The notes under the pieces: generated by a model
What the model saw: the letters and a program-made list of their open reading frames with translations, nothing else
What the model was told of the DNA's origin: nothing
The model's database searches: none
Source of the DNA: Candidatus Rifleibacterium amylolyticum
Lineage (GTDB): Bacteria > Muiribacteriota > Ozemobacteria > Ozemobacterales > Ozemobacteraceae
DNA length: 64,000 bases
Assembly: GCA_009917695.1 (NCBI GenBank)
Contig: JAACJG010000004.1
Span: 124,001-188,000 of the forward strand
Direction: 5' to 3'
Position numbers and translations under genes: made by a program
Shown here: positions 1-13,814 of the stretch, piece by piece
How the letters are laid out: each line of letters begins with the position of its first letter
Numbering within the stretch: position 1 is the stretch's first letter

Positions 1-2505
1 CCCAAGGGCATAATGCTCAGCCATAAGGCATTCATTGCATCGATAGAACTTGGTCTGAAGATTTCAGATTACCATCGCGATGACCGCATGCTGACTCTGC
101 TGCCCTTTACCCACGTTTTTTCACTCGTCGATGCCGGCCTGGTCATGCTTGGCTGTCATTCGACGCTGGTCGTCTGCAACAGTTTCAATCCGGCAGAGAT
201 CATTCCGGTAATGATGAAGTATCGAATTACTTATGTCATGGCAGTGCCTCGCCTCGCCGATCTTTTCGCTTTCGGGCTCATGCAGAAGCCTGAGCTCAAG
301 TTTGCTGGCATTACCATGATCATTGGCGGCGCGGCGCCGCGCGCCCAGGTCATGCAACTGCTTAATTCTCGTGGAATAAGAACTTTTCAGGGATTCGGCA
401 TGACCGAAACCGCGGCCGGCGTGTTGATTGGCCATAACTGTCCTCTTGAAGCCGTCGGAAAGGCCCAGCATGGCGTGAAGGTTATGATCGACAAGCCGGT
501 TAATGGAGTCGGCGAGCTGTTGATAGCGACTCCGACAATTTTTTCAGGCGTTTTCGGGCAGCCGGAGCTAGATCAGGAAATGTTTACCGGTGAATTCTTC
601 AAGACCGGCGATATCGCCCAGATCGACAAAGAGGGTTTTGTTTACATTCGCGGCCGCGCCAAAGAGGTGATCATCTCGGCTTCTGGTTTGAACGTTTATC
701 CTGATGAGCTTGAACTGAGACTGGGAACTCTTCCATATGCCGAAGAATTTGTAGTATTCGGTCTCTGCGAAGCCGGTCTTGAGATTCCAGCCCTCGCCAT
801 GCTTGGGCGAAACGAGTTTTTTAAGGATTACAGCGTCGGCAAAGAACAGGAATACGTAGAAGACGACATTCGCAAACGAGTTGCCGAATGGCCGGAAGCC
901 GAACGTATTCGAAAGGTGTTCATTGTTGATAAACCGCTGCCCCGTTCAGCCAGCGCCAAAATCAAGCGCTTCGAAGTAGCGGCGATGTTCAGCCCGGAAG
1001 CTGCCACGAAGAACCGGCAGGCCGAGCGCTCTACGCCAGCGGCTAAAGCTGCTGATAACAGGGAAACCATCGATGCCTTCGTACATGAAGTTGCTGCATT
1101 TCTTAATGTAGATCCTGATAAATTCGAGCTTACCAGTCGTCTCGACTCTTTTATGCAGCTTGATTCGCTGGGCGTGATCGCGATGCTGATCAAGCTTGAA
1201 CAGCGTTTCAGTGTGTCGTTTCGCGAGTTGATCGGCACTTCGATCGAAACTTTCGAAGAGCTTTATAAGTTTTTTGCCGACCAGGCAAGCCCTGAGAATA
1301 TCGAAAAAGCTGCAAATGGCACTTCTCCGGTTCCGGGTTTGCCGCCGCTGCTCGACTTTTCACCGGTTGCTCTTGAACAACGCCAGAAATTCGTGCGCGA
1401 ACAGTCCGGGTTTAACGATTTTAACCTGCCGGTACCGCAAGATCCGGCAGCGTTCACAGGCAATATCGAGGGGTTTACCGGCTTTGTTCAGGTGCCGGTC
1501 GGTCTCTGTGGTCCGCTCAAGGTTCTCGGTACCTACGCCGAGGGCGAATTCTTCGTGCCGATGGCGACGACTGAAGGCGCGCTGGTTTCTTCAGTATCGC
1601 GTGGTTGCCAGGTAATCACACTGTCAGGTGGCGCTCAGGTGCGCATGGTCGATGAAGGCGTTGTTCGCACGCCGGTGTTTGTGCTCAAAGACCTCGAACA
1701 GCTAGAAAAATTCAGCACCTGGGTCAGCGATAACTTTGCCAAAATCGCGCGCTCGGCCGAGAGCACCACCAGTCACGGCAAACTCAAGGCGATCGAGCCC
1801 TTTCCGATCGGCAGCACGATGGTTTTACGCTTCAACTACTCGACAGGCGATGCGTCCGGTCAGAACATGACCACTATCGCTACACGCAACGCTGTCGATT
1901 ATATTCTCGAAAATTACCCTGGCAAGATCAGAGAGTGGTTTCTTGAATCGAATCTGTCGGGAGACAAAAAGATCAATGCGGTCAACTTTACCCGCACTCG
2001 TGGTAAAAAGCTGGTTGCGCAGTGTCTTATTCCTGCCCGCATCGTTGAAAGCATGCTGCATTCGACGCCGCAGCAGATGTGTCGTCTGGCTGAGCTGGCC
2101 ATGGTGACCTCGATGCAGGCCCACTCATTCGGTATGCAGGCGCATTACGCCAACACTCTGGCTGCCGTCTATATTGCGGCCGGTCAGGACCCAGCCTGTG
2201 TCGCCGAGTCTGCTGCCGGTATCACCAGTTTGCAGCTTGTCGATGGCGATCTGCAGATCAGCGTCACGCTGCCGGGTATCATGGTCGGAACTGTCGGCGG
2301 TGGCACCCGCCTGCCGACGCAGAATCACTGCCTGCACATGATGGGCTGCGCCGGCGCCGGCAAAGCCGGAAAATTCGCCGAAATTCTCGCCGCTGCGGTT
2401 CTTGCCGGTGAAATCTCGATCATCGGTGCCATGGCTTCAGATGAGTTTACCCAGGCCCATGCTCGTTACGGTCGTTCAGGTGGCCTGAAGGGCAAAGGGG
2501 CATAA
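1..2505 (+). CDS. Acyl/aryl-CoA synthetase - acyl carrier protein - HMG-CoA reductase fusion (5' partial)
   Basis: The reading frame is open from base 1 and its first residues, PKGIMLSHK, are the core of the AMP-binding signature. The gene therefore starts left of the window and the ATG at 13 is internal. Three modules follow. The rest of an adenylate-forming enzyme carries GFGMTE, KTGD, GRAKEVI and the terminal lysine region SASAKIKR (to about nt 1000). A carrier domain has LDSLG with the phosphopantetheine serine at 1165-1167. A class I-type HMG-CoA reductase domain starts near nt 1450 and keeps all four catalytic positions: Glu in MATTEG (nt 1573), Lys in GDKK (1966), Asp in GQD (2188) and a C-terminal His (2458), plus the nucleotide loop GDASGQN. 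The usual ENVIG substrate loop reads EGFTG. Known chemistry suggests acid activation, tethering to the carrier and NAD(P)H reduction of the thioester. The substrate is unknown. The formyltransferase follows after one base. Confidence 0.85.
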   Translation, partial: PKGIMLSHKAFIASIELGLKISDYHRDDRMLTLLPFTHVFSLVDAGLVMLGCHSTLVVCNSFNPAEIIPVMMKYRITYVMAVPRLADLFAFGLMQKPELKFAGITMIIGGAAPRAQVMQLLNSRGIRTFQGFGMTETAAGVLIGHNCPLEAVGKAQHGVKVMIDKPVNGVGELLIATPTIFSGVFGQPELDQEMFTGEFFKTGDIAQIDKEGFVYIRGRAKEVIISASGLNVYPDELELRLGTLPYAEEFVVFGLCEAGLEIPALAMLGRNEFFKDYSVGKEQEYVEDDIRKRVAEWPEAERIRKVFIVDKPLPRSASAKIKRFEVAAMFSPEAATKNRQAERSTPAAKAADNRETIDAFVHEVAAFLNVDPDKFELTSRLDSFMQLDSLGVIAMLIKLEQRFSVSFRELIGTSIETFEELYKFFADQASPENIEKAANGTSPVPGLPPLLDFSPVALEQRQKFVREQSGFNDFNLPVPQDPAAFTGNIEGFTGFVQVPVGLCGPLKVLGTYAEGEFFVPMATTEGALVSSVSRGCQVITLSGGAQVRMVDEGVVRTPVFVLKDLEQLEKFSTWVSDNFAKIARSAESTTSHGKLKAIEPFPIGSTMVLRFNYSTGDASGQNMTTIATRNAVDYILENYPGKIREWFLESNLSGDKKINAVNFTRTRGKKLVAQCLIPARIVESMLHSTPQQMCRLAELAMVTSMQAHSFGMQAHYANTLAAVYIAAGQDPACVAESAAGITSLQLVDGDLQISVTLPGIMVGTVGGGTRLPTQNHCLHMMGCAGAGKAGKFAEILAAAVLAGEISIIGAMASDEFTQAHARYGRSGGLKGKGA

Positions 2506-2506
2506 C

Positions 2507-3265
2507 ATGAAAGTTATATATGTGACATCAGATGTTACCTATGTAAAAGACAACTATCTGTCGCTGGTCGATCGCGTCACCGACCCGGCCAATCTGCCGG
2601 CAGGAGTCGAAGTTGCCGCCGTGATAATACTGAAAGTGCCCGAAAAGCTGCTGCTGAAAAACATCATCGGTTTGCAGCTGATCGGCGCGCCACGCTTCAG
2701 TTTCGCTTTGCTGCGCAACATGATGCAGTCGCGCATCAATGATCCGCGCGTCAAAGTGCTCGAAGAACGTGGAATCAAAATCTTTCGCTGTTCAAGCGTC
2801 AATCAGCCGGCAGCTCTACAGTTCATCAGCGATCTTAAGCCTGATCTGATGGTCAACATGCGCACCCGCAATATTTATAAAAAACCGGTGCTGGATCTGC
2901 CAAAGATCGGATGCATCAACATTCATCACGGTCTGCTGCCCGATAATCGTGGCACCATGTGTGACCTCTGGGCCTGGATCGAAGGCCGCCCGGTCGGCTT
3001 TTCAATCCACTGGATGAACGAAAAGATCGACGACGGCGATATAATCGACCGCTGCGAGGTTGACGTTAAGGGCTGTCGCTCTTATATCGAGATTCCCTAC
3101 AGGTCAAGCCAGGTTGAAGCTGATTGCCTGCTGCGCAATCTCGCCCGCATAAAGCGCGAAGGCCACTTCGTCGGCATTCCGAACCGTACCGAGAATATCA
3201 ATTACACACGCACGCCGTCGCCGGCAAAGCTGCTGGAAATCCGCCGCCGCGGACTGAAGTTGTAA
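2507..3265 (+). CDS. Formyltransferase family protein (Fmt/PurN-like fold)
   Basis: The 252-residue protein has the N10-formyltetrahydrofolate transferase core. Around residues 136-180 it shows INIHHGLLP, RGTMCDLWA, and IDDGDII, supplying the Asn, His and Asp of the family's catalytic triad. The usual HPSLLP is HHGLLP here. It lacks the C-terminal tRNA-binding domain of methionyl-tRNA formyltransferase, so it more likely formylates an amine on a small molecule or sugar. The ATG follows the stop of the synthetase-reductase fusion by one base, with an AAAGGGGC-like ribosome site inside the upstream gene, which indicates translational coupling and a shared pathway. The acceptor substrate cannot be read from the sequence. 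Confidence 0.8.
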   Translation: MKVIYVTSDVTYVKDNYLSLVDRVTDPANLPAGVEVAAVIILKVPEKLLLKNIIGLQLIGAPRFSFALLRNMMQSRINDPRVKVLEERGIKIFRCSSVNQPAALQFISDLKPDLMVNMRTRNIYKKPVLDLPKIGCINIHHGLLPDNRGTMCDLWAWIEGRPVGFSIHWMNEKIDDGDIIDRCEVDVKGCRSYIEIPYRSSQVEADCLLRNLARIKREGHFVGIPNRTENINYTRTPSPAKLLEIRRRGLKL

Positions 3266-4011: not shown

Positions 4012-5409
4012 TCAATGTTCCGCGTTTTTTGCCTGTTGCACAGAATAAACTCGAAAGCGTGAGGCAATTCCCTTCAGCTCCTCATCACGATGCTTGATTT
4101 TGCATTTTTGTCGTTTAAGAAGCGGCCTTATAGTTTCGTCTTCATACACTGCCCCTGAAATCAGTATTTCGTGTTCGCTGCTCTTCGACTGAACGCGGGC
4201 GGCAATGTTTACGGTTCTGCCGAAAAAATCGAGACTTCGATTGCTGGTAACAGTGATTGCCGGGCCGCGATGCAGTCCGATTTTTACTTCGACATCCTGA
4301 AGCTTGTTCTCCTGATTGAGGCGCCAGAACTCTTTCTGAATCTTCAGCGCCGCCGCCACCGCTTCTGCATTAACAGAAAAAGAAGCCATGACAGCATCTC
4401 CGATAGTTTTTACAATGCCGCCATTATATTCTTTTATGATCTCTGTCATTACGTCAAAGTGCTTCTGAACCAGAGAATACGCAGCGCTGTCGCCAAGTCG
4501 TTCGTACATCGCGGTAGAGCCTTTTATGTCGGTAAACATCAGCGTGATGCTTTTAACCGCAAACGATACATCTTCGCGCAAGAATTCTCCGGCAAAGAGA
4601 TCCTTAAAATCCTGCAGACCTGTTATATAGGATGCACTGACAAAATTATGTACCGGTTTGCGGGGCAGTATCAGAAACCCGTTCATGCCTTCAAACTCGG
4701 CTTTTACGCTGAATTCGACGCGCCCCTGCTTCAGAATCAGATTTTTCTGATCAGGTTCGCTTTTTTTGTTAAAAGTCAGGCTCACCTTTTGTACAGAAGG
4801 TGAAAGCTCATCTAGAACAGTTATTGTGCCAGAATTTTCAAGAAAGGAGGGAAGATGGAAAATGTATTCGCCTGGCAGAAAGTCGCCGGCAGCCTTTGTG
4901 GTCTTGCCGCCATAGATGCAGCAACCAACGGTAAACCTGCGCTTTTCCCGCTCCAGTATGGCATCGAGAAATTGCATTTTTCCCTGAAAATCGAGTTCGC
5001 TCCAGCATTTATAATCAATCTTACGAATATTGGGATTGACCGTGAAGGTCACCTCAACCTGATCAGAAAAATCGAGCTGCCAGTCTATTTCACATAGAGC
5101 GCAATGTGCCTTTTGCTGCAGACCCATCAGGTGCTTGTGAAACACCGGTATTCCCTTGCATGAAGGACAATGAATATCCCAGTTAAGATCCATGATACCA
5201 AGGCGAGCGGCATACAAAAATCCCTGTATGGCTTCGGCTCTGCTTATTCCAGACTGTTCAGCCACCCTGAAAACGTTGATCTTGTAACAGTCAAAGTCAT
5301 TACCGTCAGTGATCAGATTTTTTATGATTTCAAAAGTCGCAGCGGAACATTTGGAGTTATTCAGCTCAGTCAGCAGCTTTTGAGCGGTTCTGGAAATCTT
5401 GTATTTCAT
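4012..5409 (-). CDS. Class III adenylate/guanylate cyclase with N-terminal winged-helix-like and zinc-binding region
   Basis: The C-terminal ~190 residues form a class III nucleotide cyclase. LMFTDIKGST (residue ~290) gives the first metal-binding Asp, KTIGDAVMASF gives the second, and the substrate/transition-state region lies around GRTVNIAARVQ. The N-terminal third looks like a helical DNA-binding-type segment followed by two CxxC pairs (CPSCKG and CALCE), probably a zinc ribbon. The middle is a DUF5939-like region. No membrane segment is evident, so it is probably cytoplasmic. The ribosome site GAGG precedes the ATG by eight bases. The product (cAMP or cGMP) cannot be told by eye. It stands alone on the minus strand within the lipid/export region. 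Confidence 0.85.
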   Translation of the reverse strand: MKYKISRTAQKLLTELNNSKCSAATFEIIKNLITDGNDFDCYKINVFRVAEQSGISRAEAIQGFLYAARLGIMDLNWDIHCPSCKGIPVFHKHLMGLQQKAHCALCEIDWQLDFSDQVEVTFTVNPNIRKIDYKCWSELDFQGKMQFLDAILEREKRRFTVGCCIYGGKTTKAAGDFLPGEYIFHLPSFLENSGTITVLDELSPSVQKVSLTFNKKSEPDQKNLILKQGRVEFSVKAEFEGMNGFLILPRKPVHNFVSASYITGLQDFKDLFAGEFLREDVSFAVKSITLMFTDIKGSTAMYERLGDSAAYSLVQKHFDVMTEIIKEYNGGIVKTIGDAVMASFSVNAEAVAAALKIQKEFWRLNQENKLQDVEVKIGLHRGPAITVTSNRSLDFFGRTVNIAARVQSKSSEHEILISGAVYEDETIRPLLKRQKCKIKHRDEELKGIASRFRVYSVQQAKNAEH

Positions 5410-5624: not shown

Positions 5625-6350
5625 ATGAGCGATAAAGAATATGAAAAATATCTCAATGAGGTCAGAGAGCGTCTGGCCGCTTATCCGAATGTTAAGCCCG
5701 GCAATCATTACAATTCTCCTACTCCGACACTAGGTCTGTCTGTGCCTCAATCAAGGGCTGCGCTCAAGGCCGGCTACAACTTCCTGAAACTGCCTGCCGA
5801 AAAAGTTCTGCAGGCTTTCGATCACATCTGGTTCAATGCCGTATTTTTTGAGGAAATGAGTCAGTCGATTTATTATTACGAAAAGAAATCGCTTTCCCAA
5901 GACCAGTTCAGAGCCATTTCGCGCTGGATCGACCGTTGTGACAACTGGGCGCACAGCGACGGGCTTTCTTCTATTTATGCTCTGGCTCTCGAAGAAAATC
6001 CCGACCTTGTTCTGCCGGTTCTGCAAAACTGGAACAGCTCTGACAACCCCTGGAAACGCCGCCAGTCTGTAGTCAGCCTGCTGTATTACTCCCGGGCCCG
6101 CAAGAAGGTGCAGCCTTTTGAGGTCATGATCGGACTGGTGCAAGCTTTGCTGCGCGATAATGACTATTACGTCCAGAAGGGTGTGGGCTGGACATTGCGC
6201 GAACTCTACAACCGTTATCAGGAAAGAACTCTCAGATTTATCAGCGATAACGTAAATGTCATTTCGCCCGCCGCCTGGCAGGCCACTACTGAAAAGCTGT
6301 CAGTCTCGACAAAAAAACAGCTGCTTGAACAGAGGCGCGGCAACAGATAG
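5625..6350 (+). CDS. AlkD-like DNA alkylation repair protein (HEAT-like repeats)
   Basis: The 241-residue all-helical protein matches the DNA alkylation repair family. IDRCDNWAHSDGLS (about residues 103-116) corresponds to the family's NWDLCDS motif with its catalytic Asp. NPWKRRQSVVSL and VQKGVGWTLRE match the conserved helices that bind the DNA backbone. Family members excise N3- and N7-alkylated purines as monofunctional glycosylases. The ATG has a GGAG site about ten bases upstream. No functional link with the neighbouring lipid genes is apparent. Confidence 0.8.
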   Translation: MSDKEYEKYLNEVRERLAAYPNVKPGNHYNSPTPTLGLSVPQSRAALKAGYNFLKLPAEKVLQAFDHIWFNAVFFEEMSQSIYYYEKKSLSQDQFRAISRWIDRCDNWAHSDGLSSIYALALEENPDLVLPVLQNWNSSDNPWKRRQSVVSLLYYSRARKKVQPFEVMIGLVQALLRDNDYYVQKGVGWTLRELYNRYQERTLRFISDNVNVISPAAWQATTEKLSVSTKKQLLEQRRGNR

Positions 6351-6590: not shown

Positions 6591-7511
6591 ATGGCATTTG
6601 TCAGAAGATGGTGGCAGTTCCTTAAGGAACGCCACGAGCCTTTCAGCATTACTTTGATGGTCGCTATTTTCTTTGCGGCCGTCGCCTTTGTCGCCTATCA
6701 GCCAGGGGTACACGCGCCACCATGCTGGAAGCGTCTGGCCGCAGGTTTTGCGATTGTCTGGTTGATATTTTTGCACATGCGCATGTTTGACGAAGTCAAA
6801 GACTATGATGTCGATCGTGAACACAACCCGGAACGCCCGCTGGCACGAGGTTTGATCAGCGTTGGTGAATTCTCGGCGATGACCATGCTGGTGCTCGCGG
6901 TCGAGATTGGGCTGGCTGGCATCATGCGATGGCCGATGTTGCCGGCTTATATGATGGTTCTCTGCTTCACTCTGCTGATGCGCATGGAATTCTTCGTCGG
7001 TGACTGGATGCGCCCGAAGCTCGAACTCTATGCGATTACCCATACCTTTTCGGCAGCCATGATCAGCATGCTGATTCACAGCATTGTCTGTTTTTCTGAT
7101 TTTGCCGGCGCCGACCGCGGTATGCTGCTTTATGCACTCGGAAACTGGTTCGTTTTCAATGTTTTCGAATTCGGCCGCAAAACCTTTGCCGTCGAAGAAG
7201 AGCGCGAAGGCGTCGAATCGTATTCGAACCGGCTCAAACCAATTGGCGCAGTTCTTCTGCTGCTGGTCAACATTGCACTGGCCTATGCCGCTTTTTATTA
7301 TGTTGCAGTCAGCAAGTTTACAGCTGTTGCCGACTGGCGACTGCTGGCTCCGGCCGGCGCGGTTTCGCTGCTGGTCGCTGTAATAGGCCTGATTTACGCG
7401 GCAAAGCCGGTTCTGGCTAACGCAAAGCTGTATCGCGGCGTCGTGACCTTGTATCTGCTGGCTTATCCGGCAACAATAGCCGGAGCAGTCTATCTGCTGG
7501 TTTATCGATAA
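6591..7511 (+). CDS. UbiA-like prenyltransferase (integral membrane)
   Basis: A polytopic membrane protein of 306 residues with about eight hydrophobic segments. After the second segment it shows FDEVKDYDVDREHNPERPLARG, matching the first Asp-rich prenyl-diphosphate-binding motif and the RP signature of the UbiA superfamily. The second Asp-rich motif is not clear: the matching loop contains GRKTFAVEEEREG, with Glu in place of most Asp. Family members transfer a prenyl group to an aromatic or lipid acceptor at the membrane. A strong AGGAGG ribosome site precedes the ATG. It leads a co-directional run with the swivel kinase, the RND exporter and the BtaA-like transferase, so it probably modifies the same product. 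Confidence 0.75.
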   Translation: MAFVRRWWQFLKERHEPFSITLMVAIFFAAVAFVAYQPGVHAPPCWKRLAAGFAIVWLIFLHMRMFDEVKDYDVDREHNPERPLARGLISVGEFSAMTMLVLAVEIGLAGIMRWPMLPAYMMVLCFTLLMRMEFFVGDWMRPKLELYAITHTFSAAMISMLIHSIVCFSDFAGADRGMLLYALGNWFVFNVFEFGRKTFAVEEEREGVESYSNRLKPIGAVLLLLVNIALAYAAFYYVAVSKFTAVADWRLLAPAGAVSLLVAVIGLIYAAKPVLANAKLYRGVVTLYLLAYPATIAGAVYLLVYR

Positions 7512-7548: not shown

Positions 7549-10308
7549 ATGTATATTGTTACCAACGAAAACCGCAATTTCGATCAGGTTCTGCCACTGG
7601 TTGGCGGAAAAGGCGGCAATCTGCTCAAACTTACTGCTGCTGGCGCCGATGTTCCGGCCTTTGTCGTGCTCAAGAAAAACTGTTTCGACGAATTCATCGG
7701 TTCTTTTCGTGGCGAATTCAACAAGTGTCTCAAGGCGCTTGACTGCTCGACTCCAGAGAGTATCGCGAGAACTGCCGGCGCTCTGCGCAACTGCATGTTG
7801 ACGCACCCGATTCCGGATCGCATCAAAAACGATCTGTTCAGCACACTGAAAAAGCAGCTGCCGGAAGGAACTTTCGTAGCCGTGCGCTCTTCGGCACTGG
7901 GTGAAGATTCCAAAGAGTTTTCCTATGCCGGAATGCTCGATACCTGCCTGTTCAGGCGCAGCGAAGCCGAAATCTGTGAGGCCGTAGTGACCTGCTGGTC
8001 TTCGATTTATTCCGATCGCGCTGTTGCCTATCGCAATATGCGCAACATCGCCCAGGATACTGTCTCGATGGCTGTCGTCGTGCAGGAAATGATCGATGGT
8101 GTCGCGTCCGGCGTCACTTTCACTGTAAATCCGACGACCCGCTACGAAGACGAGATGCTCATTACCTCTGTTTTCGGTCTTGGTGAGGGACTTGTCTCCG
8201 GAACGCTCGATTCTGACCAGTTCATATGCCTCAAGAAAGATGTTTACCCGGTCGTCGAAAAGCAGCTGGCCAACAAAGTCGAAAAGCTGGTTTTCGATCG
8301 CGAAAAGAATTACGGCACAATCACGGTCGAAGTGCCCGCCGAAGAAGCCAAAAAGTCGAGTCTGAGCGAAGCACAGCTGCGTGCCATCTCAACTGTCTGC
8401 CATCGCATCGAAGGCAGCTACAACAAGGTTCCGCAGGATATCGAATGGACGATCGACTCGGCTGGCCGCGTGCGCATTCTGCAGGCCCGCCCGATCACGA
8501 CAATAGACCGGCCGATTCCCTCTGAACGCGGCTACAGCACAATATGGGATAACTCGAACATTGTCGAGAGCTACTCAGGCGTGACTACGCCTTTGACGTT
8601 TTCATTCGCCATCTATGCCTATCACCGAGTCTACGTGCAGTTTTGCCAGGTTCTCATGGTACCAGAAGAAGAGATTCAGGAAAATGATTACGCCTTCGCT
8701 AATATGCTTGGCTTCTTGAACGGCCGCATCTATTATAACCTCAAGAACTGGTACCGCCTGATCTCTGTACTGCCGGGATACAGCTACAACAGCCGCTTCA
8801 TGGAAGGCATGATGGGTGTCAAGGTCAGCTACGACAAGTCGGTCAAACAGAAGAAGGTAGGTTTTTTCAGCAAGTATTTCGTAGAACTGCCTCGCCTGGC
8901 GCTGGTTGGGGCCAATCTTGCCTATCGTTTCTGGCGTACTGACACAGAAGTAAAGCGCTTCATGGATGTTTATCAGGCCATGTACAACAAATACAAGGAC
9001 TTTGATTTCAATGCGGCACCGGCACATAAGCTCATCGATATATTCAACGAGCTCGATAACACCGTGCTGGCACACTGGAAAGCCCCTATCATCAACGACT
9101 TCATGGCGATGATTTTTTACGGTGTGCTCGACGCGCTTATGAAAAAATGGGATCTCAACGCTGACCCGGCGCTCAAAAACGACCTTCTCGCCGGTCAGGG
9201 CAATGTCGAAAGTACTCTGCCATTGCGCAATATCCAGAAAATAGCGCGTTTCGTCGCTGCTGACAGCGAACTCAAAGAGCTGTTCAAGACCAGGCCTGCG
9301 GCCGAACTTAAAGATATGTTCATTCCGGTGCCGGGCACCGACCGGCCGGCGGGGCACCAGCAGCTGGGCAGCCAGATTGCTGAATACCTCGAAAAGTTTG
9401 GCTATCGCGCCATGTGTGAGCTCAAGCTCGAAGAACCCTCGATGAACGAGCGCCCCGAATTTTTGTTCGACATGATCAAGAACTATGCGGCCGCGCCGAT
9501 GCCGGTTGAAGAAGATATCGGCGAAAAAGAACGCCAGGTGCGTGAGGTTGCTGAACGCAAGGTTCGCGAAGTTCTGGGTGATCAGAAGATTTTCGGCCTG
9601 ATCAAAAAGATCGATGTGCTGATGTTCGTCGCCAACTGGGCCAAAAAAGCGATGGCGGTGCGCGAATACCAGCGTTTCGCCAGAACCCGCATGTATGGTT
9701 TGATGAGCCGTATATACAAGGCTTTCGGTCTGCGTTTCGTCGAACGTGGTGTGCTCGACAAGGTCGATGATATCTTCTATCTGACCATGCAGGAAACTCT
9801 CGAATACGTCAGCGGCACCGCCCGCAGCCAGAAGCTGCGTGAGCTCTCAGCCCTGCGCCGCGCTGAATTCGACGAATACCGCGCTATGGATGAGCTGCCC
9901 GACCGCATTGAAACCACCGGTATCACCTACTGCAACGACCTTACCCGCGGCATGCTGCCAACTAATGTCGAAGACGATGATCCCGATATTATTCGCGGCA
10001 TTGGTGGCTGTTCCGGTAAGGTTACCGGTAAGGTCAAGGTTATTCTCAATCCGAGCGACGATATGTCACTCAATGGCGAAATACTCGTGGCCGCCCGCAC
10101 AGATCCGGGCTGGGTGCCGTTGTTTGCCACTGCTTCTGCTCTGCTGATCGAACGCGGCAGCATGTTGTCGCACTCGGTCATAGTTGCGCGCGAACTCGGT
10201 CTGCCGGCTGTCGTTGGCGCTACCGGCGTGACTAAAAAGGTCAAGACTGGCGATGTGGTTGAGCTCGATGGCACGACCGGCATCGTCAAGGTCATTTCAA
10301 GAGCATGA
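7549..10308 (+). CDS. PEP synthase/rifampicin phosphotransferase-like dikinase
   Basis: A 919-residue protein. An N-terminal ATP-grasp domain opens with VGGKGGNLLKL and contains AVRSSALGEDS and QEMIDGVASGV. A large central helical region of about 450 residues matches no motif I know. The C-terminal swivel domain includes GSMLSHSVIVARELGLPAVVG-type sequence, with the phosphocarrier His near residue 875. The pyruvate/PEP-binding barrel of true PEP synthase is absent. The order ATP-grasp, acceptor domain, swivel domain is that of rifampicin phosphotransferase, which moves the beta-phosphate of ATP to a small-molecule hydroxyl. The acceptor here is unknown; a pathway alcohol is an attractive inference. 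The end overlaps the exporter start by four bases (ATGA). Confidence 0.8.
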   Translation: MYIVTNENRNFDQVLPLVGGKGGNLLKLTAAGADVPAFVVLKKNCFDEFIGSFRGEFNKCLKALDCSTPESIARTAGALRNCMLTHPIPDRIKNDLFSTLKKQLPEGTFVAVRSSALGEDSKEFSYAGMLDTCLFRRSEAEICEAVVTCWSSIYSDRAVAYRNMRNIAQDTVSMAVVVQEMIDGVASGVTFTVNPTTRYEDEMLITSVFGLGEGLVSGTLDSDQFICLKKDVYPVVEKQLANKVEKLVFDREKNYGTITVEVPAEEAKKSSLSEAQLRAISTVCHRIEGSYNKVPQDIEWTIDSAGRVRILQARPITTIDRPIPSERGYSTIWDNSNIVESYSGVTTPLTFSFAIYAYHRVYVQFCQVLMVPEEEIQENDYAFANMLGFLNGRIYYNLKNWYRLISVLPGYSYNSRFMEGMMGVKVSYDKSVKQKKVGFFSKYFVELPRLALVGANLAYRFWRTDTEVKRFMDVYQAMYNKYKDFDFNAAPAHKLIDIFNELDNTVLAHWKAPIINDFMAMIFYGVLDALMKKWDLNADPALKNDLLAGQGNVESTLPLRNIQKIARFVAADSELKELFKTRPAAELKDMFIPVPGTDRPAGHQQLGSQIAEYLEKFGYRAMCELKLEEPSMNERPEFLFDMIKNYAAAPMPVEEDIGEKERQVREVAERKVREVLGDQKIFGLIKKIDVLMFVANWAKKAMAVREYQRFARTRMYGLMSRIYKAFGLRFVERGVLDKVDDIFYLTMQETLEYVSGTARSQKLRELSALRRAEFDEYRAMDELPDRIETTGITYCNDLTRGMLPTNVEDDDPDIIRGIGGCSGKVTGKVKVILNPSDDMSLNGEILVAARTDPGWVPLFATASALLIERGSMLSHSVIVARELGLPAVVGATGVTKKVKTGDVVELDGTTGIVKVISRA

Positions 10309-12698
10309 ACGAACAGCAAAACAGCACGCAACCGCAACCACGAAAGCGCTTCGCCGACCAGCAGTTCAGGGCAGCGGCACGTTTTATCGTGCGCTACCGT
10401 CGCGCACTGGCTTTCCTGTTGATGATCGTCTGTGTTGGCGGGCTGTATTTCGCTCGCAATATCAACCTCGACAACAGCCTCGAACTCTGGTTTCTCGAAG
10501 ACGACCCGACACTGGCCGCCTACCGTGAATTCAAAGAAAAATACGGCAACGACGAGATAATTCTGGCAATGGTCGACTGCCGTAAAGATGGCATGTTTTC
10601 GCCGGCGATGCTGACCGCCCTCTATAAGGCTTCGAAAGCGATCGAGGATGATACCCTAAACTTTCGGCGTGTGTTGAGTGTCGGTTTATCGCCATACATC
10701 GGCCTTCATAACGACGAACTGATCATCGAAGACCTGATGGATGGCCCCGTAGAAACAGCCGAAGCGGCGGAGCGCATCAAGGCCCGCTTCATGGATGACC
10801 CGTTCAAACGCAAAATTCTACAGAATGCCAGTTCGACCTGGGCTATCATCATTGCCGAACCGGTTGCTACTCCTGATATGGACACCCGCCGCCCGCTGAT
10901 CATCGAATCGGTGCGCAAGAAACTCGCCGGTTTCGAATATCGACTGGCCGGTATGGGCGTGATGTACGATGAACTCAATCGGCTGAGCATTCTCGATGGC
11001 GGCGTTTTCAACGCGGTTGCCTACACGGTTATCGCGATACTTATTTTCGCGCTCTATCGTTCGTGGACGTTCCTGTTCATGGCGCTTGGCGCCATGCTGT
11101 TCAGCGGCCTGAGTTTTCTGGGTGCTTATGGTTTGTTCGGTCAGAACTTCAATATGGTAACCATCGTTCTGCCAACGCTGATGATGATACTTTCTATTTC
11201 TGACGTGGCCTATGTCTATAACAACTATTGTTTCAATTCAGAGCGCATCCGCAAAAATCGCGAAGAAGGTCTTGAACACGTCTTTAACGAAGTTCTCTCG
11301 CCCTGTCTGTTTACTTCACTGACCAATACCTGCGGCTTTTTTGCTTTGACCGCAAGCTCTTTGTCGGTTTTGCGCACATTCGGCTGGTTTGCCGGTTTTG
11401 CCAGTATGACTGAATATGTTGTTTCGATGATCGTCTCGGCCTATATTCTTGGCCGCGTCGAGCTCAAAGAAGACATTCAGATCAAACGCCCGATGGAAGG
11501 TCCGATAAACTGGTTGACGCGGCATATTCCCAGTTATTATCGTCAGATTTTACTGGCTTTCGCGATTGCTGCCGGTCTTGGCCTGTATGGCTTGTCGCAG
11601 CTTCACGTCGATACTTATTCTATGGGTTTTCTGCATGAGAAAAATCCGATAAGAGTAGACAGCGACAAGGTCGAAGAGGTTTATGGCAATTATCTGCCGC
11701 TCGAAGTCAGACTGCTGACGGGGCAGCGCAATGGTATTCTCACCGTCGATTTCATGCAGCGTCTGCAGAAGATGCACGATGATCTCGAGGCTATTCCCGG
11801 CTTCGAGAAGGCGGCCTCTATCGTCGATGTTTTCAAGAAGCTCAATCAGGTCTGGAGCGACGGCACCGAAGCGACTTACGTGGTGCCGGACAGCGACGCC
11901 AAAATCGCCCAGTTGATGATGCAGTATGAGTCTGACCCCGATAATGACCTGGTTTACATGACTGATAATCCCGATTATACGGAAGCACGCCTTACCGTGC
12001 GTGTGCCAATGCTGAGCGCAGCGGTGCTGCGTGATTACGAAGAGAAGGCAATGCAGGTGCTGCACAAGAACTTCGATGGGACCGGAGTGACCTGGAAATT
12101 CGGCGGCTATGTGCCGCTTTATGCGCGCATCATCAGTTACGTTACCTGGAGCCAGGTTTCGAGCTTCGCTCTCGCGTTCGTTTTTGTGTTTGGGGCTATT
12201 GCCATACTGTTCAGGCGCCTCAGCGCAATGATTCTGGTAATACTTCCCAATGTTTTCCCGATTCTGCTGACACTGGGCGTCATGGGCCTGACCGGCATCA
12301 GACTCGATATCGCCACGGTGACCATAGCCGCCATTGCTCTTGGTATCGTGGTTGACGACACCATTCATAGTTTGTATCAGTTGTATGACCCATCTCGTTC
12401 GCATATGTCGCCGACCGAGGCGATAATCGACGGCGTTAAAGAAGCCGGGCCGGCGATGTTTTCGACATCGATGATCTATGCCATCGGCTTTTTGTTCATG
12501 GTATTTGCCAGCATCAAGTCGATTCTCTATTTCGGCGTGCTGCTGTCGTTCACTATCTTTGTGGCGCTGCTTTGTGATCTTGTGTTTCTGCCGGCGCAGA
12601 TTTGTCTGCTGCGCCGTTTTCTGGCGAAAGATTTTCGTGGCGAAGACGAAACATCGGTTTCTGCAGTCGCCGGGAATGATGATTCAACCGTTAATTAA
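10305..12698 (+). CDS. MMPL/RND-family lipid exporter
   Basis: A 797-residue inner-membrane protein with two repeats. In each, one transmembrane helix is followed by a periplasmic loop and a block of five helices (about residues 230-370 and 620-770). Conserved polar residues include ISDVAYVYNNY in the first block and GIVVDDTIH in the second, the positions of the proton-relay Asp in MMPL and hopanoid-exporter proteins. It begins at an ATGA overlap with the swivel kinase gene, so the two are co-translated. With the LolA-like protein and the barrel downstream, it probably moves a lipid from the inner membrane towards the outer membrane. Confidence 0.85.
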   Translation: MNEQQNSTQPQPRKRFADQQFRAAARFIVRYRRALAFLLMIVCVGGLYFARNINLDNSLELWFLEDDPTLAAYREFKEKYGNDEIILAMVDCRKDGMFSPAMLTALYKASKAIEDDTLNFRRVLSVGLSPYIGLHNDELIIEDLMDGPVETAEAAERIKARFMDDPFKRKILQNASSTWAIIIAEPVATPDMDTRRPLIIESVRKKLAGFEYRLAGMGVMYDELNRLSILDGGVFNAVAYTVIAILIFALYRSWTFLFMALGAMLFSGLSFLGAYGLFGQNFNMVTIVLPTLMMILSISDVAYVYNNYCFNSERIRKNREEGLEHVFNEVLSPCLFTSLTNTCGFFALTASSLSVLRTFGWFAGFASMTEYVVSMIVSAYILGRVELKEDIQIKRPMEGPINWLTRHIPSYYRQILLAFAIAAGLGLYGLSQLHVDTYSMGFLHEKNPIRVDSDKVEEVYGNYLPLEVRLLTGQRNGILTVDFMQRLQKMHDDLEAIPGFEKAASIVDVFKKLNQVWSDGTEATYVVPDSDAKIAQLMMQYESDPDNDLVYMTDNPDYTEARLTVRVPMLSAAVLRDYEEKAMQVLHKNFDGTGVTWKFGGYVPLYARIISYVTWSQVSSFALAFVFVFGAIAILFRRLSAMILVILPNVFPILLTLGVMGLTGIRLDIATVTIAAIALGIVVDDTIHSLYQLYDPSRSHMSPTEAIIDGVKEAGPAMFSTSMIYAIGFLFMVFASIKSILYFGVLLSFTIFVALLCDLVFLPAQICLLRRFLAKDFRGEDETSVSAVAGNDDSTVN

Positions 12699-12713
12699 TC
12701 TGGAGGTTTGGTT

Positions 12714-13814
12714 ATGACCAAGAAACCCGCAGTCGTTTACAGCAATGTCTGGGAAGACCCCGAACTCAACCGTGTCTCGCTCAAGGTAGAACCCGGCCAG
12801 AACGTGCTTTCAATCACCTCTGGCGGTTGCAACTCTCTCTGTCTGCTGCTCGAAGACCCGGCAAAACTGATTTCGATCGACCTCAATCCGGCGCAGCTGG
12901 CAATGCTTGAATTCAAGCGTGCTGCGATCATGGAACTCGACTACGATGACTTCATCGAATCGATGGGCACTCCATTTCTGTTCAAGCAGGGCAAGCCGGC
13001 CGAATATCGCATTGAACTCTACAATCGCATCAAAAAGCATATGCCGGCTTATGCCGTGCAGTTCTGGGATGAAAACCAGCACCATATTCGCGATGGCATT
13101 ATGATGTGCGGCAAGGTCGAGAAATTTTTCAAGATTTATCGCACTTTGCTCGGATTCTTGTATTCTAAAGAAGATCTGATGAGCCTGTTCAAGGCAGAAA
13201 ATCTCGAAAAGCAGAGAGAAGCTTACGCCAGTTTCCACAAAAAGCGCTGGAATGCCCTGCATCGACTGTTATTGAATCGCTTCGTTCTAAGTCTGGTCAA
13301 AGGTGCTCATTCATTCGCTCAGGTTGATTTTGAAGACTTTGCCGGCAATCTCAATGTTAAACGTAGTCGCGGCATGACGCGCTTTTTCAACCCAGACAAC
13401 TATTTTATGTGTCTGCTGATGCTCGGCGCGCATTATCATGAGAAGGGCATGGCACCTTATCTGCTGCGCGAGAACTACCCGAAGCTCAAGGCCAACATCG
13501 ATCGTCTTGAGATCTTCATGGGCACTATCGGCGATGTGCTGAAAAAGGATGGCCCGGGCAGTTACGATCGTTTTAATCTTTCAAACATCTTTGAATGGAT
13601 GACCAACGAAGTTTTCAACGGCATCGTGCGCGAAGTCCTTGAACTGGCCCGACCCGGTTCACGCATGGCCTGGCGCTACACCTTCGCCCGCCCGCGCGAA
13701 CTCGACGCCGAGAACCTCAGCAAACTGGTCTACGAACCCGAACTCTCTGAACAGCTGTTTAATCAGGATCGCGCCTTCATCTACGAGAGCTTCCACGTCT
13801 ACCACCTCAAATAG
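12714..13814 (+). CDS. BtaA-like S-adenosylmethionine 3-amino-3-carboxypropyl transferase (DUF3419)
   Basis: The 366-residue protein has the DUF3419 pattern: YSNVWEDPELN near the N-terminus, then VLSITSGGCNSLCLLL and ISIDLNPAQLAMLEFK, which form the S-adenosylmethionine site. BtaA, the best-known member, transfers the 3-amino-3-carboxypropyl group of SAM to diacylglycerol in the first step of betaine-lipid synthesis. No BtaB-like N-methyltransferase is nearby, so the product may not be a standard betaine lipid. I chose the ATG at 12714, seven bases after CTGGAGG, over an in-frame TTG at 12708 that would leave no room for a ribosome site. It lies 15 bases after the exporter. Confidence 0.8.
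   Translation: MTKKPAVVYSNVWEDPELNRVSLKVEPGQNVLSITSGGCNSLCLLLEDPAKLISIDLNPAQLAMLEFKRAAIMELDYDDFIESMGTPFLFKQGKPAEYRIELYNRIKKHMPAYAVQFWDENQHHIRDGIMMCGKVEKFFKIYRTLLGFLYSKEDLMSLFKAENLEKQREAYASFHKKRWNALHRLLLNRFVLSLVKGAHSFAQVDFEDFAGNLNVKRSRGMTRFFNPDNYFMCLLMLGAHYHEKGMAPYLLRENYPKLKANIDRLEIFMGTIGDVLKKDGPGSYDRFNLSNIFEWMTNEVFNGIVREVLELARPGSRMAWRYTFARPRELDAENLSKLVYEPELSEQLFNQDRAFIYESFHVYHLK

Follow-up and report, generated by a model that had tools for sequence, protein, structure and literature searches.

The window (the whole stretch of 64,000 nucleotides that was analyzed) opens inside a gene whose product joins, in this order, an acyl-adenylating domain, a carrier domain with its attachment serine (Ser559) and an HMG-CoA reductase (HMGR)-fold domain with all four catalytic residues. 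From its sequence, this chain is probably an FcrA-based carboxylic-acid-to-alcohol reductase that loads its own substrate, with the alcohol feeding a lipid pathway encoded by downstream genes. An HMGR-fold domain would thereby have been taken over for the reductive step in an NRPS-like loading line, and the chain is a candidate for converting a free acid to an alcohol within one protein, by a route that is probably insensitive to statins.

An intact chain conserved among relatives

The coordinates of the chain, of its domains and of the downstream genes are given in Table 1. The reading frame is open from the window edge and continues leftward. In the assembly sequence, an ATG start codon behind AAGGAG lies at window position -509, i.e. 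509 bases before the window begins, and the full gene (L003:9491-12505) encodes one chain of 1004 amino acids. A domain search on this full-length gene, including the sequence left of the window, returned the AMP-binding and HMG-CoA_red families directly and the carrier by way of homologues. In the Pfam scan of the whole chain, the carrier remained below threshold; once the carrier region was scanned as a cut-out, PP-binding was matched in all 12 of the 12 homologues considered. A profile of this region also hits acyl carrier proteins of solved structure (best E 5e-11), and Ser559 (window 1165-1167) is found within an invariant LDSLG, such that both the PP-binding fold and the invariant DSL serine of a carrier are present. 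The adenylation domain keeps YTSGTTGKPKG, GFGMTET, KTGD and the catalytic Lys490, while the catalytic residues of the reductase domain are Glu695 (window 1573), Lys826 (1966), Asp900 (2188) and His990 (2458), equivalent to Glu559, Lys691, Asp767 and His866 of the human enzyme. The AF2 model of the chain is of moderate quality (mean pLDDT 70, pTM 0.45), and in Foldseek it matched the EntE-EntB adenylation-carrier fusion over ~640 columns and an archaeal HMGR over 376 columns.

Table 1. Positions in the window of the fused chain, its domains and the associated downstream genes.
Feature	Position	Strand	Evidence
A-ACP-FcrA chain, in-window part	1..2505	+	Open frame, start site, full-length homologues
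Acyl-adenylating (AMP-binding) domain, residues ~15-504	1..1002	+	Pfam PF00501 E 9.5e-62; first third left of window
Carrier (ACP/PP-binding) domain, residues ~520-605	1048..1305	+	PP-binding in homologues; profile vs solved ACPs
FcrA-type HMGR-fold reductase domain	1336..2475	+	Pfam PF00368 (HMG-CoA_red) E 1.4e-113; residue test; tree
Formyltransferase-like gene	2507..3265	+	PF00551 E 1.3e-16; synteny
UbiA-like membrane transferase	6591..7511	+	PF01040 E 2e-6 (below gathering); synteny
PEP-synthase-like enzyme (PPDK_N + PEP-utilizers)	7549..10308	+	Pfam; synteny
MMPL/RND-type transporter with sterol-sensing-like region	10305..12698	+	PF03176 E 9e-15; synteny
DUF3419 protein	12711..13814	+	PF11899 E 6.5e-67; synteny

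Chains of the same order are carried by ~20 Riflebacteria/Wallbacteria genomes, at 41-87% identity. They are found throughout the host family (Ozemobacteraceae) and in a second, Wallbacteria-type family of the phylum, and the reductase domain occurs in 22 of 40 genomes of the phylum. In 19 of 19 aligned full-length chains, the core adenylation motifs, Lys490, Ser559 and the four catalytic reductase residues are unchanged, and the reductase domains of the fused Riflebacteria/Wallbacteria chains form one clade in the tree (support 100/99). Because ~20 genomes carry the intact architecture, a frameshift, an assembly error or chance can be excluded, and the domains are not separate genes. The original prediction of the three domains in a single chain, with all four catalytic residues of the last one present, was thus borne out.

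The reductase domain carries the marks of FcrA

The same prediction had taken the last domain for an HMG-CoA reductase, and in this respect it did not hold. FcrA (Grossi et al. 2025, PMC11948995) is an HMGR homologue that reduces acyl-CoA of C14 and longer to the alcohol in an NADPH-dependent manner, shows no activity on HMG-CoA and is insensitive to simvastatin. Its marks, in human numbering, are the replacement of Ser684 by Glu, which may repel the HMG carboxylate, the absence of the Lys that binds HMG (numbered Lys795 in that paper and found at Lys735 in our alignment) and a bulky residue at Leu862, and in the published models they accompany a long pocket (PMC11948995). All three are present in the chain, as Glu819, seven residues ahead of the catalytic Lys (as in Glu360/Lys367 of N. 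pharaonis), as a deleted Lys735 position and as Phe986, four residues ahead of the catalytic His (as in Trp528/His532).

Related loci were collected by scanning 85,000 species genomes with an alignment of the domain, which yielded 464 related stretches, the best 80 of which belong to Riflebacteria, Bacteroidota, Vibrionaceae, Verrucomicrobiota, Planctomycetota, Acidobacteriota and others. Throughout the related loci (73 of 73), Glu559, Lys691, Asp767 and His866 are kept as in the chain, Ser684 is replaced by Glu or Asp, the Lys735 position is a gap and Leu862 is replaced by Phe. When referring to these counts, it should be considered that the scan relied on the patterns GDASGQNM and FLE[STC]N[LI]SGD, so that the conservation of those motifs is partly due to selection; neither the missing Lys735 nor the Phe at 862 depends on these patterns. 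The Ser, Lys and Leu are all kept in the four true HMGRs compared, namely the archaeal 6hr7, one from a plant and two from Streptomyces, of which one (L105) sits inside a complete mevalonate cluster. The tree splits these four from the FcrA-like proteins (100/96), and, as it was built without a characterized FcrA sequence, FcrA membership rests on the published residue marks. Judged by the signature residues and by the HMGR/FcrA-like split of the tree, the domain is to be placed with the FcrA type.

The EGFTG loop, proposed as a telling change from ENVIG, is indeed present, but EGFA, EGLI, ENFF and EAFF occur at this place among the fused relatives, and ENxI is found in many stand-alone relatives. 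As read from the alignment, the decisive changes are rather those at Ser684, Lys735 and Leu862.

Pfam and NCBIfam both label the domain as HMG-CoA reductase, and its catalytic residues are intact, as one would expect if the chain were a true mevalonate-pathway HMG-CoA reductase with extra domains. Against this, the residues that bind the HMG carboxylate at Ser684 and Lys735 are lost in all 73 relatives, and the domain, the only one of HMGR fold in the host genome, scores 354 with TIGR00533, under the cut-off of 442. HMG-CoA synthase gave no match in the host genome and none over the cut-off in 37 relatives (two sub-threshold matches only), while the control genomes were matched; 34 of these 37, among them the host and all near-complete genomes, have the MEP-pathway enzyme DXR. 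Among 30 genomes that carry other members of the subfamily, HMG-CoA synthase was matched in 4 and DXR in 25. The residue test and the missing HMG-CoA synthase thus led us to reject a true HMG-CoA reductase, a reading that is largely refuted and to which we give hardly any credence, and the original suggestion of a role outside isoprenoid synthesis stands.

FcrA-like proteins are labelled 'hydroxymethylglutaryl-CoA reductase' in hundreds of genomes, e.g. in Vibrio, which amounts to a widespread annotation error; one such protein is encoded on a Vibrio fluvialis plasmid, though its family has the FcrA marks. The Vibrionaceae loci (L049-L051, L053, L055-L058 and others) hold FcrA-like genes that stand alone and lack the UbiA/PPDK/DUF3419 set. 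Several of these genes adjoin a gene for a large predicted protein of 690-750 amino acids, and one (L058) has a glycerol-3-phosphate-dehydrogenase-like gene nearby. Two further plasmid-borne homologues were observed. On a Sinorhizobium plasmid (L107:5983-7227), an 'HMG-CoA reductase' is flanked on both sides by carboxylase subunits, with an indolepyruvate ferredoxin oxidoreductase gene nearby; this homologue misses the HMG-binding Lys and also the FcrA Glu, has Lys in place of Arg590, and is possibly a third functional type. On an Alteromonas macleodii plasmid (L108:5971-7137), the homologue has Trp at 862, as haloarchaeal FcrA does, and Ala at 684, and is found a few genes behind an AMP-binding gene, a gene for an iron-containing redox enzyme and an SDR gene.

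Proposed reaction and substrate

In the proposed reaction, the adenylation domain would use ATP to activate a free fatty acid, probably a long-chain one, and load it onto the phosphopantetheine arm at Ser559. The FcrA-type domain, using the HMGR chemistry of its Glu, Lys, Asp and His, would then reduce the acyl thioester by four electrons, in two hydride steps that consume two NADPH, and release the primary alcohol. The suggestion that a carrier-bound thioester is reduced to an alcohol is probably right, although it is from the fusion alone that we infer that the carrier feeds the reductase, as the characterized FcrA used free acyl-CoA and not acyl-ACP. This last fact agrees with a different division of labor, in which other ligases supply free fatty acyl-CoA for the FcrA domain to reduce and the adenylation and carrier domains serve another hand-off, such as a chain shuttle. 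The authors who described FcrA proposed a shuttle role for the Lad and ACP domains found in other FcrAs (PMC11948995), and CoA ligases are the closest relatives of the adenylation domain. Nonetheless, none of the core adenylation motifs, Lys490, Ser559 or the reductase residues varies among the 19 homologues, a joint conservation that argues for one working line, and we hold such a division to be unlikely.

The substrate of an adenylation domain is not predictable from sequence, and the preference for a long-chain fatty acid should be read accordingly. Besides the CoA ligases in general, the domain resembles feruloyl-CoA, malonyl-CoA and OSB-CoA ligases, and the neighboring formyltransferase and DUF3419 genes hint at amino groups, such that the same machine might act on an acid of another kind (aryl, hydroxy, polyketide or amino-lipid) in the making of a specialized lipid or natural product. 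We consider this quite improbable, since the published models associate the FcrA marks with a long pocket and the best curated match of the adenylation domain, under the cut-off of that family, is a long-chain fatty acid ligase family.

Downstream genes and the possible fate of the predicted alcohol

In 15 of 20 loci, that of the window included, the fusion is followed directly by a formyltransferase-like gene. Four genes of an operon type that we found in other phyla (UbiA-like, PEP-synthase-like, MMPL and DUF3419) also follow the fusion in the window. Between the formyltransferase and the UbiA-like gene are an adenylate/guanylate cyclase with DUF5939 (4012-5409, minus strand) and a DNA-alkylation-repair-type protein (5625-6350, plus strand), both of which look unrelated to the pathway. 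An upstream esterase-like gene was considered as a pathway member and rejected, being kept in only 3 of 20 loci.

Outside Riflebacteria, 23 of 60 loci show an operon headed by a stand-alone FcrA gene and containing UbiA-like, PEP-synthase-like, DUF3419, CTP-kinase-like, GNAT and acyl ligase genes, and in 12 of these 23 the order is identical (HMGR/FcrA, UbiA, PPDK, DUF3419, CTP-kinase-like, GNAT, acyl ligase). The genes mostly overlap or nearly abut. The carriers, as named in the records, belong to about nine phyla: Bacteroidota, Acidobacteriota, Verrucomicrobiota, Planctomycetota, Pseudomonadota, Thermodesulfobacteriota, Melainabacteria, Auribacterota and Lentisphaerota. The UbiA-like family also adjoins stand-alone FcrA genes in other phyla, the MMPL gene has the same operon place in a Muproteobacteria genome (L082) as in the window, and the window DUF3419 gene, whose family is an FcrA operon partner in other phyla, is the only copy of the host genome. 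A CTP-kinase-like homologue is located elsewhere in the host genome, and a search there for the operon GNAT found no homologue. The name CTP-kinase-like is tentative, with one of 15 members matching PF01148 (at 7.7e-5) and searches of solved structures giving no identification for the family.

In a Gastranaerophilales genome, a chain of 1162 amino acids (L045:318-3806) precedes FcrA and the full operon; it reads as Aas-like, combining an MFS transporter, a PlsC-like acyltransferase and an acyl ligase, the first two recognized by eye. In the Muproteobacteria genome, a gene for an AurF-type diiron oxygenase (L082:830-1867) overlaps the start of FcrA.

Wax synthase (WS/DGAT) was found in none of 37 relatives, while the same search matched in 3 of 26 other FcrA genomes, and wax-ester use was rejected on this ground. 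The alcohol would most likely enter a lipid pathway of the downstream genes, rather than wax esters or isoprenoids. We tentatively suggest that this could be an undescribed pathway of UbiA-like, PEP-synthase-like, DUF3419 and CTP-kinase-like enzymes, with a possible new class of alkyl lipids as its product in about ten bacterial phyla. The head of such a lipid might be of an amino-acid type because DUF3419 includes BtaA-type aminocarboxypropyl transferases. Our literature search found no description of the FcrA operon, nor of HMGR together with UbiA and PEP synthase, and the DUF3419 literature, in the parts available to us, deals with betaine lipids of algae and plants or with unrelated subjects. 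A widespread operon of lipid type is now approachable in culturable hosts such as Dyadobacter.

Comparison with known systems

Carboxylic acid reductases (CAR) have the order A-T-R, with an SDR-type reductase that releases an aldehyde. The chain shares with them the order of adenylation, carrier and reductase, and differs in its HMGR-fold domain, which is expected to give an alcohol. Class I HMG-CoA reductases (6hr7, human HMGR) have the fold and the catalytic residues in common with the window domain, whereas the HMG-binding residues that they keep are lost in the latter, and no mevalonate pathway is found here.

With FcrA, the chain shares the HMGR fold, the catalytic Glu, Lys, Asp and His, the Glu at 684, the loss of the HMG-binding Lys, the bulky replacement of Leu862 and genomes that lack the mevalonate pathway. 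It differs in its fused adenylation domain, by which the same chain can load its substrate, in the absence of WS/DGAT from the host and its relatives, and in its operon, which the main text of PMC11948995, in the part available to us, does not contain. The original prediction knew of no described enzyme of this kind. For the exact adenylation-ACP-FcrA chain, our literature search likewise found no description, and the available text of PMC11948995 does not mention a fused adenylation domain; FcrA itself, including ACP-fused members, was already described there in 2025. What appears to be new, as far as these sources extend, is therefore the packing with a loading enzyme in a single chain.

The comparison with ElbD of Myxococcus ether-lipid synthesis, which is drawn in the FcrA paper itself (PMC11948995), is of most relevance for the architecture. 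ElbD (Lorenzen et al. 2014) holds a synthetase, an ACP, a FAR1-like reductase and an acyltransferase in one chain, as described in PMC9131029 and PMC11948995. Its reductase is FAR1-like and N-terminal, while that of the window chain is of HMGR fold and C-terminal, and neither the acyltransferase of ElbD nor a FAR-type domain was found in the Pfam scan of the window chain, which sets it apart from ElbD. As both proteins nonetheless unite an acyl-CoA synthetase, a carrier and a fatty acyl reductase in one chain, ElbD is, by analogy of architecture, the nearest counterpart of the window chain.
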